A program made the position numbers and the translations under genes. From a virus, in the IMG/VR virus record IMGVR_UViG_3300048838_000528, positions 1 to 55,586 of that record: a DNA stretch of 55,586 bases. One strand, 5' to 3'. Below, one piece after another: positions 5,188 to 52,398 of the stretch (positions are counted from its first letter, which is position 1; every line of letters starts with the position of its first letter). The notes beneath the pieces were generated by a model. That model saw only the letters and a program-made list of their open reading frames with translations, made no database searches and had not been told where the DNA came from.

Positions 5188-5352
5188 ATGAAAACAGTTG
5201 GAATTGATTGGGAATTAAAAATTACGGGTTGGGAAGATTTGAACGCTGGGCAACGTTGTGATGTTCTTGAAGCAATTATTAGAAAATTAAACTTTACAGA
5301 TGTTTTAAATGGCGATTTTGATGGTTCTATTGGTTATGATGTGGAGGATTAA
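5188..5352 (+). CDS. Small paralogous protein B, 54 aa
   Basis: Full-length paralogue of the protein at 4549 (same order of motifs: IDW, GWE, NAG.RCD.LEAII, FDGSIGYDVE). AAGGAGGAA lies before the ATG. The copy sits behind its own near-consensus promoter, separately from copy A, so the two may be expressed at different levels. No function is apparent from sequence. Confidence 0.8.
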   Translation: MKTVGIDWELKITGWEDLNAGQRCDVLEAIIRKLNFTDVLNGDFDGSIGYDVED

Positions 5353-37394: not shown

Positions 37395-37715
37395 TTATCC
37401 CTCCAATGTCTTTCTAAATAGGTTGATGGTATACGTCCCATTTGATGTAAAGGTTTCATTTGTAACCTCTGCTGTTTCAAAAACATCAGATAATGTACCA
37501 TTATAAAGTGTGATATAGTCTACTGTTTTTCCTGATGGTACAGCAAACACCACGTTTTCAACTTCTGTTGAACCACCTGAAGCCTGACTAAAATAAACGG
37601 TTTCACTGTCTATCAATGTGTCTGCACTATCATATAGCCTCATGACAGTAGCCCCACCACTTCGATAAAATTCTAAATCTAACATTTTGTTAAATTCAAC
37701 ATTACTAATCGCCAT
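37395..37715 (-). CDS. Small virion protein, 106 aa
   Basis: Beta-rich (SETVYFSQASGGSTEVENVVFAVPSGKTVDYITLYNGT). The VPSGKTVDYITLYN block is like the IPSGTTLSCIAYEN block of the next gene, so the two may be paralogues. Probably a tail or baseplate component. AAAAAGGAGAATAAAATT precedes ATG. Confidence 0.75.
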   Translation of the reverse strand: MAISNVEFNKMLDLEFYRSGGATVMRLYDSADTLIDSETVYFSQASGGSTEVENVVFAVPSGKTVDYITLYNGTLSDVFETAEVTNETFTSNGTYTINLFRKTLEG

Positions 37716-45321: not shown

Positions 45322-45361
45322 AATATGCACCTCTTTCTAAAAGTAACTCCTGTTATAAATA

Positions 45362-45390
45362 TAATATATACATATTGATACTTATATCAA
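45362..45390 (-). promoter_or_regulatory. Possible internal promoter with palindrome
   Basis: A perfect inverted repeat TTGATA-CTTA-TATCAA (45375-45390) lies in the gap between capsid and connector genes. One arm doubles as a -35 (TTGATA) with TATATT 16 bp away on the - strand. The same -35 hexamer is used by the tail-fibre promoter. Candidate operator/promoter for connector and tail genes; moderate support only. Confidence 0.4.
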
Positions 45391-45393
45391 GAG

Positions 45394-45411
45394 GAGTGGC
45401 AAAAGCCACTC
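45394..45411 (-). terminator. Hairpin after the capsid extension
   Basis: GAGTGGC, AAAA, GCCACTC: a perfect 7-bp stem, 8 nt after the stop of the Ig-like frame. No U-run follows, so it is a weak terminator or a processing/stabilising hairpin that limits transcription between the abundant capsid message and the connector genes. Confidence 0.5.
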
Positions 45412-45418
45412 GTTCTTG

Positions 45419-45748
45419 TTATTCTGCGGTTTCAACCGTAATTGCAAATGTATCGTTACTTGCAGGGCTAAATGATGTTAATGCACCACCGTTTGGTAGG
45501 TAGTACTTGATTTCAGCCGTTACAACTAATGAACCTGCACCGACACCCGTTACAGTAGCACCCGTGTTAGAGGTTGCTGATAACGTTCCTAAATCCTCGT
45601 CGTTTACACTCCATACAACAACAGCGTCATTGTAATCGAAGTCATAAGCAGTTGGGTCAAGGGTAAGTGTCAAATCAAGTGTCGCCCCAACATCAACAGT
45701 GATAGCGTCCCCATCACTGCTGATTGTAAGTGACGTTGGGGCTACTAC
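45419..45748 (-). CDS. Ig-like (Big_2) extension of capsid, -1 frame
   Basis: A Big_2 immunoglobulin-like domain, read from the overlap with the capsid stop: VVAPTSLTISSDGDAITVD, then VGATLDLTLTLDPTAYDF, VVWSVNDEDLGTLSAT and GATVTGVGAGSLVVTAEI. There is no start codon or RBS that would include its conserved beginning; the first TTG (45673) is 25 residues inside the domain. The frame joins the capsid frame through a -1 slip at GGGG just before the capsid TAG. The extension adds 109 residues (about 513 in total). Ig-like domains added to capsid or tail proteins by frameshift are known in other phages; they probably decorate the capsid for surface binding. Confidence 0.8.
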   Translation of the reverse strand, partial: VVAPTSLTISSDGDAITVDVGATLDLTLTLDPTAYDFDYNDAVVVWSVNDEDLGTLSATSNTGATVTGVGAGSLVVTAEIKYYLPNGGALTSFSPASNDTFAITVETAE

Positions 45749-45753
45749 CCCGC
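45684..45753 (-). promoter_or_regulatory. Candidate -1 ribosomal frameshift signal
   Basis: Slip site GCG GGG TAG: the Gly tRNA on GGG (45750-45748) can re-pair with GGG one base back (45751-45749), avoiding the TAG. After a 5-nt spacer (45747-45743), a 12-bp stem follows: GCCCCAACGTCA (45742-45731) with TGATGTTGGGGC (45695-45684), one G-U. A 7-bp inner hairpin (CAGTGAT/ATCACTG, 45719-45713 and 45703-45697) sits in its loop. Spacer and stem match known -1 signals; the slip sequence is not a classical heptamer. Confidence 0.7.
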
Positions 45754-46959
45754 TTTGTTATCCAGATAGTAAATACTTTCTGGATAGATGATTGCAAGAG
45801 GACCTGCAAACGCAACATAAACCTTACGGTAACCATCTTCGGTTGGTGAATAAGCCATAGCACCACCTGTTAAAGCCATCGTAATAGGCATTTTAATAAC
45901 TTTTTCATCTCTGCGATAGAATACAATACGACCTGTTGAATTCGCACCACTTGCTTCAATTGGGAAGCCATAAGTTGCTTCGGCATTTGCTTGTAAATAT
46001 GGTAATTCAACAAATTCGATTTCAACTTGTAAACGTGATTTGATTTCTCTTTGGATATATTGCATAATTGAAGTCGCAATACCCGCACCACTTGCGTCAC
46101 CAACAGCACCAATAACTGCAGGTTTAGCAAGTAAAGTCCATACATCTGGTCCTAAAAGAGCCATATTTGGATAGAAGTCACGGTTATAACGTACATTACG
46201 TTTCATCGCTTCAATAATTGTTAGAATGGTTGTGGTCCATTCAGACACATCGTGTGCAGACCATTGTTCAGCCGATAACGCTGAATAACCAATGCCTGAA
46301 CCTGTGGTTGGAATATTTAATAATCCGGGAAAGAAATTAGTTGTTGAAGTTGTAATATCGGCAATACCAACGTTACCTTCAAAAGCCATATATTCGATTT
46401 CTCTCCAATATGAAGTACGGAGTGCGTCTTCGTGTCTTTCAAGAATATCAAAGTTAATGGTTTGAGCCTTCATTAAATCTACGTTACCAAGTAAGATACC
46501 TAACTTGATTGCGTAAATAGGAACAACTTTCTTTTCAGAAGCAACGCTAACTAATGGAACTTCGTTAGTATTACCACCCGCAAGACGTCCTTCACCAAGA
46601 CCAATGTTAGAACGGAAGAAAGCAAAACTTTCTACTGCACCACCACCGTAACGGATAGGAACTAATTCTTGTGCCCAATACTTGTTTAATGGTAGGTTTA
46701 CCGTTAAATCAAGAATTTGGAAAGCGTCAATTGGAAATTGACTTGCTTCACTGTCAGCAAAGAACTTGCTGTCATGGAAGAACTGTGTATTCTTTTGGTA
46801 ATCTTTAATTAAAGTTGATTGATTGCGAGCCATTTTTTCTTTGGCTTCTTCCATTTCAATAAACGCTTGGCGTAAGGATTTGTTTTGACCTTTTGCAATA
46901 GCGTCTACATCTCTAAAATCTACATATTTATTATCAATAAATCTTTGTCTCATCTTCAT
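45745..46959 (-). CDS. Major capsid protein, 404 aa (DUF2184-like)
   Basis: Size, position after protease and cement proteins, and sequence pattern fit HK97-fold major capsid proteins of the DUF2184 type: helical N-terminus (SLRQAFIEMEEAKEKMARNQ), VNLPLNKYWAQELVPIRYGGGAVESFAFFRS, IKLGILLGNVDLMKAQTINFDILERHEDALRTSYWREIEYMAFEG, NMALLGPDVWTLL and the end YRKVYVAFAGPLAIIYPESIYYLDNKAG. AGAGAGGTAG precedes ATG. A fraction is probably extended by the -1 frameshift at its stop codon to carry an Ig-like domain. Confidence 0.9.
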   Translation of the reverse strand: MKMRQRFIDNKYVDFRDVDAIAKGQNKSLRQAFIEMEEAKEKMARNQSTLIKDYQKNTQFFHDSKFFADSEASQFPIDAFQILDLTVNLPLNKYWAQELVPIRYGGGAVESFAFFRSNIGLGEGRLAGGNTNEVPLVSVASEKKVVPIYAIKLGILLGNVDLMKAQTINFDILERHEDALRTSYWREIEYMAFEGNVGIADITTSTTNFFPGLLNIPTTGSGIGYSALSAEQWSAHDVSEWTTTILTIIEAMKRNVRYNRDFYPNMALLGPDVWTLLAKPAVIGAVGDASGAGIATSIMQYIQREIKSRLQVEIEFVELPYLQANAEATYGFPIEASGANSTGRIVFYRRDEKVIKMPITMALTGGAMAYSPTEDGYRKVYVAFAGPLAIIYPESIYYLDNKAG

Positions 46960-48704: not shown

Positions 48705-50411
48705 TTAAACCTTGCCCATCGGTACTTTGACAGTCGGTTTCTTCGTTTTGTCGGTGTCTCCGCCTTCCTTACTTCCTTTGTGTGCACTTTCGACTTTATG
48801 CGATAGGTTAGTTCCACCTTCGCCCTGACCCTGTAAGTGGTTTAATGCCGTTGCTAACTCAATATCTACTGCCATCTTGTTAAGTGGGTCTCCACCTTGT
48901 GCTTTAGACTTCACATATTCACGATATTTTTCAGTGATTTCATTAAACATATCACTTACATTATCCTGTGAAGCAACAAGCATGTGTTGGATACTTTCAA
49001 CATCAGCCACATTGTTTTGATACAATACATCTAACATCTCAACAACCATCTTTAACATTTCGGCTTTTTCTTTATCGGTTGTCATTTCCAAAGATTTGAA
49101 TTTAAAACCAAAGTCTTTGATATTCTTATTAAACCGATTTTTGTAGATAAGTGGTATCAACTTGTTATACCATCCACGAATTTTACCTTCCTGTATTTCC
49201 TTAATCTTTGGTAAGTGTCTATTAGCGTCGTCTTCACTCTCCACATTAAAGAGTTCGCTCGTAGGTGCTTCCAAAGTTCCTGCAAGATTTCTTTGGTAAT
49301 GCGATAAGATTTCAGGTATTTGTTGGAAGTCGGCTGTCTTGTAATCAAAGACTTCGCTTTCTTTATCACCAAGAACTATCATATTTCCTGATGACGCACC
49401 AAAATTGATACCCTTAATCCTTGCTGTCACAAACTCTGCAAAACGTTCGCCTTGCAAACTTATTTGTGGCAAGTTCTTAATATTTAAAACGGGTATATTA
49501 GAACGCTGTGCTAACTTATTAACCTGTGCAAGCATACTTTCATATCTTGCAAAGTCACTATATGCACGTTCTAACAAAGTAGGTCCAAAAAACATTTCAA
49601 TACGTTTTTCTACCCACGTTAATTCGATTGAACTGTAAAGCAACAATCTTGAACGGTGAACTTTGAAGTATTTGTTTTTCGCTTCCATATCACCGCTTAA
49701 ATTTACCAAGAAGTATAGGGGTTGCCCAATTTCATCAGCACTGTAAATGCCATATTCTTCTCCAACTTTTGTAACCAAATTACTTGACAAATCGGGTTGA
49801 ATTTGGTATAATCGAGATAGCGGCTTCACACCTTTAAAACTGCCCTTTGACATTTTACTAACAATTAAGGGTTTCTTATAATCTTCTTCGGTTTCTGTAT
49901 CGTCACAAACAATTAAGCCTGCCGAACCACCGTAATAATCACCCCATTTAATAATGGAATGTAACGGTGCAAACAGCGAATTCAAATCCCTTTTAACTAC
50001 TGAAAGTTCTTCGGTTTTTTTATCTATCGAATTTAGGTCTACACCATTTAAGAGTGCACGTGTTGCTTTCCAACTTGACGCTTTGTCAAAATATGGAACA
50101 TCACGCATTATGCTATCTAACTTGTTAATTTGCCAAGATAAGCCTCTATTTTGGCTTAAACCCAAACCGTTAAAAGATAGGTCATAAGTTCCTGCGCCTG
50201 TCGCTTGGTATGGATTGTTTACTGCGTCAAAAAATGATTTCGATTTGATAGCCTTTTCTCTATTTTCATCTACCTGTGCACGTTCTTCATCTGATAAAAA
50301 CGCATAGGCTAACGCTTGGCTAACAAGTTCGGCTCTATCATAATTTCCACTTGAATGTAAGAACGGAGTTGTCTGTTTCAATCCATCGGCTTCTGTCTTC
50401 TGAAAATCCAA
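48705..50411 (-). CDS. Portal protein, DUF1073-like, 568 aa
   Basis: Blocks typical of DUF1073 portal proteins: DGLKQTTPFLHSSGNYDRAELVSQALAYAF at the N-terminus, WGDYYGGSAGLIVCDD, FKVHRSRLLLYSSIEL, FFGPTLLERAYSDFARYESMLAQV, FGASSGNMIVLGDKESEVFDYKTADF and GTLEAPTSELFNVESEDDANRHL. It forms the ring at the capsid vertex. I choose TTG 50411: GGAGGAG (50427-50421) is 9 nt upstream and the conserved part begins just after. The open frame extends to ATG 50540, which would add 43 residues overlapping the terminase by 203 nt; with TTG the overlap is 74 nt. Confidence 0.85.
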   Translation of the reverse strand: MDFQKTEADGLKQTTPFLHSSGNYDRAELVSQALAYAFLSDEERAQVDENREKAIKSKSFFDAVNNPYQATGAGTYDLSFNGLGLSQNRGLSWQINKLDSIMRDVPYFDKASSWKATRALLNGVDLNSIDKKTEELSVVKRDLNSLFAPLHSIIKWGDYYGGSAGLIVCDDTETEEDYKKPLIVSKMSKGSFKGVKPLSRLYQIQPDLSSNLVTKVGEEYGIYSADEIGQPLYFLVNLSGDMEAKNKYFKVHRSRLLLYSSIELTWVEKRIEMFFGPTLLERAYSDFARYESMLAQVNKLAQRSNIPVLNIKNLPQISLQGERFAEFVTARIKGINFGASSGNMIVLGDKESEVFDYKTADFQQIPEILSHYQRNLAGTLEAPTSELFNVESEDDANRHLPKIKEIQEGKIRGWYNKLIPLIYKNRFNKNIKDFGFKFKSLEMTTDKEKAEMLKMVVEMLDVLYQNNVADVESIQHMLVASQDNVSDMFNEITEKYREYVKSKAQGGDPLNKMAVDIELATALNHLQGQGEGGTNLSHKVESAHKGSKEGGDTDKTKKPTVKVPMGKV

Positions 50412-52398
50412 AAACAGCGTCTCCTCCGATTTGATTGAGTTCTTGTTGTGCTTTTGCGAGTGTTCTATCCAAGTTCCATTCGCTTTTTTTCTCTGTACCA
50501 TTTCCAAGTATGCTTTGGAGGGCATTGATTTCTTCCCCATCTATTTCACCGCCTTCATTTAACCAATATTCTGTACCACCTAATGCCGTATTTACAATGT
50601 AACGTAACACATCTAAAACGTCATCATTTATCTTTTTAATCTTAATTTTACCCGTGTCTTCATTATATTCAAATTCGTTACTTTCAATCTGATTGATTAA
50701 GTTCATACATTCGGGGTGAATTAAAATCTTGCCAATATCAAAACCATATTTAAGCAAATCAACCCCCATAATATCTTTTTGTTGATTGAGATTTGCCGTT
50801 GTCTTTTCTTTACTTCTAACCTGTAAACTTGAATTGTTGGCAGGCGTAACATAAATACCTTTCATTGTGAAATGATTGATTGTAGCCACGTGTGATGGGT
50901 CAATAATTACCATATCGTATTTACGGTTCTTACGACTTCTAACCATCGTCCAAAACTCACGTTCAATATCCTCAATTGTTGCGTCTTGGTTTTTATAGTC
51001 AATTAGGCGTTCTTGTAAAACAAACACTGTACCCGTTCTAAAATCGATTTCACAATCTAAAAGTCCTGTTTCGTGATTAAACCCAACGTCTATCCCAAGC
51101 ACACGCATGGTTTGTGTTGAATTATCAAAACTTGAAATATCAATATCTTCTAATACGTTTTTATAACTAAATTCTTTATAAACAGCCTTTTCTGCAGTCT
51201 TGCGAATGCCCATTGTTTTTTGCAAATACAAAGCCGAACCCTTTTTAAATTCTTTTTTGTATTCGTTTCTTTGCATTTCAGTTAGACCTAAATTGTCATC
51301 TACTGTAAAATGATAGTAATTATAATCATATGCATTCAAAACGTTATTTGGGTTTTTTCCACCCCTGTCAAAATGAACTATCTTACGCATACTGCGTCCG
51401 TATAACACGTGTTCCTTATTTAATTTAGGGTAAAACTTTTCAATCGGAATATTTGCAATCATTTTATCGTAATGAAAACTGATGTCACGCAAACCCAAGT
51501 AAAGTGAACTTCTATCTTCTTGCTTTAAATACTTTGGACTTGGCACCGATTTCATCTCGCAAAAACGTGCCGTAAAGTCTTTCATATCCTTATCGGCTTC
51601 TATAAGTATTTCTTTTTCAATTTTTTCAAAATCCAATTTGTAACGGTCACGTATGTATTCCATCAACTGCAAATCTTCTTCATCCATTAACTTATCTTTT
51701 TCAAAGTTAGTATAAAATGGATGTGCCTGTCCTTTAGGATTGGCTGTCATAATCAAAACGTGATTATGTGATGAAACCATACGCTGTCTTGCTTGGTTAA
51801 TACCATCTATATGTTGCGTCAAGGCTTCGTTTACATAAGTTGAACCAATGGTAAAACCTTGATACTTTTCGCCATCATTCTTTTTATCGTTACCATAAAA
51901 CAATATCTCTTTTTCAACACCGTACATGTCTTTAAACTTATAAATACCACGCTGTGCACCACTATCACTGTTTCTGACAAACACACCATTTGGTATGGTG
52001 TAATACAAACCAAAACCGCCACTATGCAAAATAGTAAGTAGGGCATGTTCTAATGACTTTCCAAGTGCTAAATGTGTCTTGTGAGGCGTGTGCATTAAAT
52101 ATAAGGTCCACGCAAGCAAGGCAAATACGTCCTTACCACCACGTGCACCACCTTCTAAAAAGTAAATGTAACCCTCACCCTTTAACATCTTTTCGGTAAG
52201 TTCACGTGCTTTAGGCTGAATGGGAAACATCATTTCGTCTACCGAACCATCGCTATAACTTGGTCTTGGTCTAATACTTTCATTTAATTCTTCGCCCTCT
52301 TTAAGTGAAAGCAATCTATCCACTATACTACGGTGGTTGTCATCCACACTGTCTTTATAAATCTTTTGTAATTCTTTGTCAAGGTTTAAATTACTCAT
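50338..52398 (-). CDS. terL: Terminase large subunit, 686 aa
   Basis: ATPase domain with Walker A GGARGGKD (residues 83-90), Walker B region STYVNEA (near 186-192) and TANPKG (coupling motif). The nuclease domain starts with GIDVGF (D437), then VIIDPSH and DDVLDVLRY as the other acidic metal ligands. It packages DNA into proheads. I choose ATG 52398, with GAGGAAG 6 nt upstream and overlap with the small-subunit stop; it is one of several possible Met codons. At 686 residues it is longer than most (450-600), mainly through insertions between the two domains. Confidence 0.92.
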   Translation of the reverse strand: MSNLNLDKELQKIYKDSVDDNHRSIVDRLLSLKEGEELNESIRPRPSYSDGSVDEMMFPIQPKARELTEKMLKGEGYIYFLEGGARGGKDVFALLAWTLYLMHTPHKTHLALGKSLEHALLTILHSGGFGLYYTIPNGVFVRNSDSGAQRGIYKFKDMYGVEKEILFYGNDKKNDGEKYQGFTIGSTYVNEALTQHIDGINQARQRMVSSHNHVLIMTANPKGQAHPFYTNFEKDKLMDEEDLQLMEYIRDRYKLDFEKIEKEILIEADKDMKDFTARFCEMKSVPSPKYLKQEDRSSLYLGLRDISFHYDKMIANIPIEKFYPKLNKEHVLYGRSMRKIVHFDRGGKNPNNVLNAYDYNYYHFTVDDNLGLTEMQRNEYKKEFKKGSALYLQKTMGIRKTAEKAVYKEFSYKNVLEDIDISSFDNSTQTMRVLGIDVGFNHETGLLDCEIDFRTGTVFVLQERLIDYKNQDATIEDIEREFWTMVRSRKNRKYDMVIIDPSHVATINHFTMKGIYVTPANNSSLQVRSKEKTTANLNQQKDIMGVDLLKYGFDIGKILIHPECMNLINQIESNEFEYNEDTGKIKIKKINDDVLDVLRYIVNTALGGTEYWLNEGGEIDGEEINALQSILGNGTEKKSEWNLDRTLAKAQQELNQIGGDAVFGFSEDRSRWIETDNSVLTFKWKL

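Follow-up and report, generated by a model that had tools for sequence, protein, structure and literature searches.

The 3' end of the major capsid gene of an uncultivated phage raises the question of how an overlapping reading frame, which codes for an Ig-like domain and has no start codon of its own covering its beginning, could be expressed. The phage is represented by the IMG/VR virus record IMGVR_UViG_3300048838_000528, which is linked to no cellular genome and whose 55,586 nucleotides were analysed as a whole (hereafter the window). A first, sequence-only reading of this DNA had proposed that a -1 frameshift adds the Ig-like domain to the capsid protein, a proposal that the arrangement of the frames, the Ig homology, the RNA stem and the capsid stop support. 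The features discussed below are collected in Table 1.

Table 1. Features at the end of the capsid gene, with window coordinates.
Feature	Position	Strand	Details or basis
Major capsid protein ORF	45745..46959	(-)	404 aa, stop TAG; second TAG at 45742-45744
-1 frame extension, Big_2-type Ig-like domain	45419..45748	(-)	109 codons + stop; predicted fusion 404+109=513 aa
Proposed slip site G_GGG	45748..45751	(-)	full re-pairing of a single Gly tRNA one base back
Alternative slip site C_AAA	45754..45757	(-)	Lys tRNA keeps two of three pairs; analogy with C_AAG
Spacer UAGUA, 5 nt, slip site to stem, holding the 0-frame stop	45743..45747	(-)	sequence
Stimulatory stem (predicted)	45684..45742	(-)	MFE, nulls, pair probabilities
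Stem outer arms, 12 bp	45731-45742 / 45684-45695	(-)	pair probabilities
Stem inner arms, 10 bp	45711-45720 / 45696-45705	(-)	pair probabilities
Stem bulge, one-sided, 10 nt	45721-45730	(-)	minimum-energy fold
5' hairpin, possible modulator	45759..45786	(-)	-12.3 kcal/mol; ends 7 nt before GGGG
Hairpin (45394-45411) and promoter-like site (45390-45361)	45361..45411	(-)	between Ig stop and next gene

The capsid gene, its natural end and the overlapping Ig-like frame

The head genes of the phage lie on the minus strand in the order terminase, portal, DUF2213-type protease, 190-aa protein, major capsid protein and DUF4054-like protein, and are followed on the same strand by more head and tail genes. 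The ORF to which the Ig-like domain would be added is a virion structural protein by its matches to Pfam Major_capside (E=3.4e-16, residues 124-400 of 404) and to the PHROG 264 major head protein (E=5.4e-22); its AlphaFold model is of too low a quality to be used (pLDDT 30). Elsewhere among these genes, the terminase gene runs about 203-206 nt into the beginning of the portal gene in a different frame (50338-50540 on the minus strand of the window, 5169-5374 in the relative, L004); throughout this stretch both proteins are recognisably conserved between window and relative, and the dual-coding overlap is unusually long. A 106-aa protein (37395-37715, minus strand), adjoining a protein of 1269 aa, has a weak match to PKD, another Ig-like fold (E=0.079).

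At its 3' end the capsid frame reads GAT AAC AAA GCG GGG TAG TAG, and thus closes on GCG GGG TAG as first described, with a second TAG directly after. A single close relative was found, IMGVR 3300010293_000321 (hereafter L002), with a capsid protein 78% identical to that of the window and a portal protein 77% identical. Its capsid protein ends DNKSA-stop, at the same position as the DNKAG-stop of the window, and no Ig frame follows the gene. Because the relative stops alike without an Ig-like frame, TAG can be taken as the natural capsid end and the Ig-like frame as a module acquired or lost. Distant DUF2184 capsids of Vibrio phages give a weak alignment that reaches residue 403 and ends there. 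Searches with the capsid, terminase and portal proteins returned one IMG/VR contig only, with no match among genome contigs or plasmids; relatives of the Ig-like frame or of the slip site were found neither in viral contigs or phages nor by exact pattern.

On the evidence of these sequences, the Ig module occupies the interval from the capsid stop to the promoter-like site ahead of the next gene, and was either gained here or lost in the relative. A similar hairpin and promoter-like stretch, TTGATATAAGTAT, also occur after the capsid stop of L002 (positions 5213-5270), and the hairpin with the conserved TTGATATAAGTAT suggests that the head and tail genes downstream have an additional transcription start here.

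A TAA at 45758-45760 bounds the -1 frame, which stays open from 45757 down to its own stop (45419-45421). It thus opens 6-9 nt before the GGG codon, in the register and at about the distance (9 nt) first reported. Its translation, which begins VVAPTSLTISSDGDAITVDVGATLDLTLTLDP..., matches Pfam Big_2 (PF02368) with E=9.1e-5 and 22.8 bits, a score that equals the gathering score exactly, in agreement with the Big_2-type assignment of the sequence-only reading. No ATG, GTG or TTG occurs in the Ig-like frame upstream of a TTG at 45673; a start at this codon would drop the first Ig strands and bring the Big_2 match under the cut-off, so that the conserved beginning does lack a start of its own, as had been claimed. 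The Ig-like ORF therefore lies in another frame, overlaps the capsid ORF and has no covering start.

Codon usage also points to translation of this frame. Scored by the codon usage of the phage, the Ig-like frame obtains +56 bits and fits across its whole length, while among the other five frames over the region one obtains +7 bits with three internal stops and the rest are negative with at least nine stops. When the stem-coded start is omitted, the Big_2 score falls from 22.8 to 15.8-16.7 bits, a loss of 6-7 bits. Moreover, an HMM built solely from frameshift-encoded phage Ig domains (those of the A2 head and tail proteins, T3 10B, and the A118 and A500 tail proteins) ranks the Ig-like ORF first among 472 six-frame stop-to-stop ORFs (E=3.4e-5), and its alignment starts at the stem-encoded strand PTSLTIS. 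From the drop in the Big_2 score and the start of this alignment it follows that the stem region itself is translated as part of the Ig-like domain. An AlphaFold model of the Ig-like frame alone, made without an alignment, has too low a confidence for the fold to be judged from it (pLDDT 51).

The proposed slip site and the RNA structures around it

In the stretch where a slip is permitted, the candidate 0-frame slip codons are AAC, AAA, GCG and GGG, and no X_XXZ_ZZN heptamer is present. According to the sequence and the pairing rules, GGG is the sole codon whose tRNA re-pairs fully one base back, whereas AAA moving to CAA keeps two pairs and GCG moving to AGC keeps none. The capsid gene has 30 Gly codons, of which 24 are GGT and one is GGG, the latter being the proposed slip codon. 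G_GGG conforms to the Z_ZZN tetramer formula only, and it is at this level that it counts as slippery. Taken together, the sequence makes G_GGG the likeliest slip site, at a position deduced from the re-pairing. The weakest point of this choice is that G_GGG, combined with an IS3 pseudoknot in E. coli, was not frameshift-prone and gave a signal ascribed to initiation, in a construct without an adjoining stop codon and with another stem and host than those of this phage (PMC4066793).

A 12-bp stem five nucleotides after the GGGG, with an inner hairpin of 7 bp, had been described from the sequence alone. The outer stem and its distance stand, whereas the inner helix has 10 bp in the minimum-energy fold, 7 being the number of its Watson-Crick pairs; on the 3' side it stacks directly on the outer stem. 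The minimum free energy is -35.7 kcal/mol over 75 nt counted from the first stem base. A 91-nt fold reaches -40.9 kcal/mol, against -22.4 +/- 3.0 kcal/mol for shuffled sequences (dinucleotide z -6.1), and the three most stable of 22,206 windows of 75 nt, taken from both strands of the 55.6-kb record, all lie at the stem. Three codon-level nulls, preserving in turn the protein, codon pool and codon set, gave no sequence as stable (0/3,000 each; z -4.5 to -5.4). The structure is thus more stable than chance, and its spacer falls within the 4-10 nt at which stimulators act in bacterial frameshifting (PMC4066793). No Rfam family matches the stem, and the one weak match elsewhere in the record scores 18.8 bits, below the gathering score of 60.

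Upstream of the slip site no Shine-Dalgarno-like stimulator, an optional element, is seen where one would normally lie, and the region has a 5' hairpin instead. None of 5000 synonymous recodings is equally stable, and the hairpin uses the sole CTG codon of the capsid gene. The relative L002 also folds at this place (-8.8 kcal/mol) with different pairs and, because it does so without an Ig-like frame, the hairpin is not specific to the Ig module and may or may not belong to the frameshift signal. A duplex on the 5' side can dampen -1 frameshifting (PMC6321510), a point counted against the frameshift reading.

Probable frameshifting and its alternatives

The reading in best agreement with the sequence is a programmed -1 frameshift that would give rise to a 513-residue minor capsid form with an Ig-like domain, and we consider it probable. 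It is the best supported because the frame scores as coding, its product resembles Ig domains known to be added in this way, the stem is strong and lies at a suitable distance, the capsid stop is conserved and no start codon is available. The same frameshift could also occur on C_AAA, two codons before GGG, where Lys-tRNA would move from AAA to CAA; the junction would then read K-S-G-V-V (Ser) and not, as after a slip on G_GGG, K-A-G-V-V (Ala). In E. coli, C_AAG followed by a pseudoknot gave 0.93%, ascribed to the shifty Lys-tRNA (PMC4066793), and C_AAA, which lies within the permitted stretch, is therefore a real alternative. Still, we think it unlikely: the slip would cost one of the three pairs, the stem lies 11 nt off and so outside the 4-10 nt rule, and neither the sole GGG codon nor the G4 run is accounted for. 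The need for any recoding would disappear if the true run were G5 and a sequencing or assembly error had split one continuous 513-residue ORF, a reading that one extra G would satisfy and to which in-frame phage Ig extensions lend a precedent (PMC5009743). Against it, the TAG stands at the natural end of the capsid family, G4 is a short run, and an in-frame fusion gives no reason for the strongest RNA stem of the record to lie exactly 5 nt on, all of which makes such an error quite improbable.

Slightly less credit still is given to an Ig-like domain made as a separate protein, by reinitiation or from an internal start, or left as an unexpressed remnant, with the stem serving some other role. 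The GGGG run can serve as a Shine-Dalgarno-like sequence (PMC4066793) and TTG 45673 is a possible start, but no start lies at a proper distance past the GGGG, that TTG loses the first strands, codon usage fits the whole frame, and the stem is ruled out as a typical terminator by the lack of a U tract on the minus strand. Bypassing of the kind known from T4 gene 60 is hardly credible here, even if the likeness is evident: a Gly take-off codon adjoins UAG, hairpins flank it on both sides, the gene 60 hairpin blocks RF1 (PMC7282821), and the Ig-like frame offers matching GGG codons for landing at 45712-45710 or 45688-45686, with part or all of the stem skipped. In contrast to gene 60, the region to be skipped codes for the conserved first Ig strands, whose omission has the cost in bits given above, so that the gap would not be non-coding, and a one-base slip is already enough.

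Three other routes were rejected. Stop readthrough would continue in a 0 frame that has TAG TAG and no Ig downstream; a recoded stop, with TAG read as sense in frame 0, never reaches the Ig-like frame; and four Gs make a short run for transcriptional slippage.

If the programmed -1 frameshift takes place, the late mRNA would yield two capsid proteins. The majority of ribosomes would stop at TAG, giving the 404-residue form, while a minority would pause as they run into the stem, Gly-tRNA being paired with GGG. The tRNA would then shift one base back, from GGG to the overlapping GGG, in translocation or with UAG in the A site, and reading would go on as GTA GTA GCC..., appending the 109-residue Ig-like domain. 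The 5-nt spacer fits a stem that reaches the ribosome with GGG in the A site; the slip may also come one step later, when GGG has moved to the P site and UAG occupies the A site. Frameshift stem-loops hinder the binding of tRNA to the A site, and the gene 60 hairpin blocks RF1 (PMC7282821). A '-1 shifty stop' can be tentatively envisaged, although we give it somewhat less than an even chance: with UAG in the A site and the release factor held off by the stem, the P-site peptidyl-tRNA-Gly would slip back on G_GGG. The 513-residue form would occupy a minority of shell positions and expose the Ig-like domain at the head, where it would presumably bind host or environmental glycans weakly; both display and binding are suggested by analogy with accounts of other phage Ig domains. 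We infer the frameshifting itself, the slip codon, its efficiency, the incorporation into the virion and the role of the product.

Known systems and the significance of the site

The statement that frameshifting adds Ig-like domains to structural proteins in other phages is confirmed by the literature and by the A2 and T3 records (PMC5009743). Ig extensions arise in this way on several structural proteins, with capsids extended by -1 in T3 and A2 and coat genes of Listeria phages shifted by -1 or +1, and the direction is probably a matter of the chance landing of Ig modules (PMC5009743). The major head protein of Lactobacillus phage A2 is among the closest known systems, with a -1 shift at the 3' end of the capsid gene and an Ig-like extension of about 85 residues, although no sequence match between its capsid and that of the window was found. 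According to the sequence records, from which both slip sites were taken, A2 uses the heptamer C_CCA_AAA followed by GCG TAA, one codon ahead of the stop, whereas the window has a single-tRNA site that touches the stop; counted from the same position, the stem energy is -38.3 kcal/mol in the window and -20.6 in A2. Gene 10B of T3 likewise combines a -1 shift at the end of the capsid gene with an Ig-like domain, whose strand A, PTGVTLSQ, resembles APTSLTIS of the window, but its heptamer is C_CCA_AAG, followed by GTG TCG GAG TAA, three codons ahead of the stop.

Slips of one tRNA beside a stop are known from the +1 'shifty stops' of SPP1 gp17.1*, PhiC0139 MTP-TpeX and the PSA and A118 tail proteins, which differ in moving +1 on Pro codons (CCC.UAA, CCC.UAG, CCC.UGA), while in the window the shift would be -1, at a Gly codon followed by a strong stem. 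The Z_ZZN tetramer sites of the IS1 and IS3 families share the one-tRNA -1 slip and the downstream structure, but the natural tetramers among them are mainly A- and U-rich, and G_GGG was not frameshift-prone in E. coli. The site of the window would join the -1 direction and stem of A2 and T3 to the layout of the +1 shifty stops, in which one tRNA slips beside a stop. The suggestion that the slip site is unusual and may be of a new type was correct in part: there is no heptamer, and no precedent for a -1 slip on G_GGG adjoining a stop was found in the literature examined, whereas the product is known, as are stop-adjacent one-tRNA +1 slips and tetramer -1 sites. To our knowledge, a '-1 shifty stop' would be without precedent as a means of extending a capsid protein by an Ig-like domain.

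The product and its logic have been known for decades from T3 gp10B and the A2 major head protein, and what appears new, as judged from one genome, is the slip site. The locus would bring another capsid family (Major_capside/DUF2184-like) among those to which an Ig module is added by -1 recoding, in a phage without a close sequenced isolate, and it fits a history in which Ig modules land repeatedly beside structural genes and recoding is then selected. If the slip does occur on G_GGG beside the stop, it would reveal a class of -1 sites missed by heptamer-based gene finders, and the '-1 shifty stop' would mirror the +1 shifty stops found in phage tail genes.
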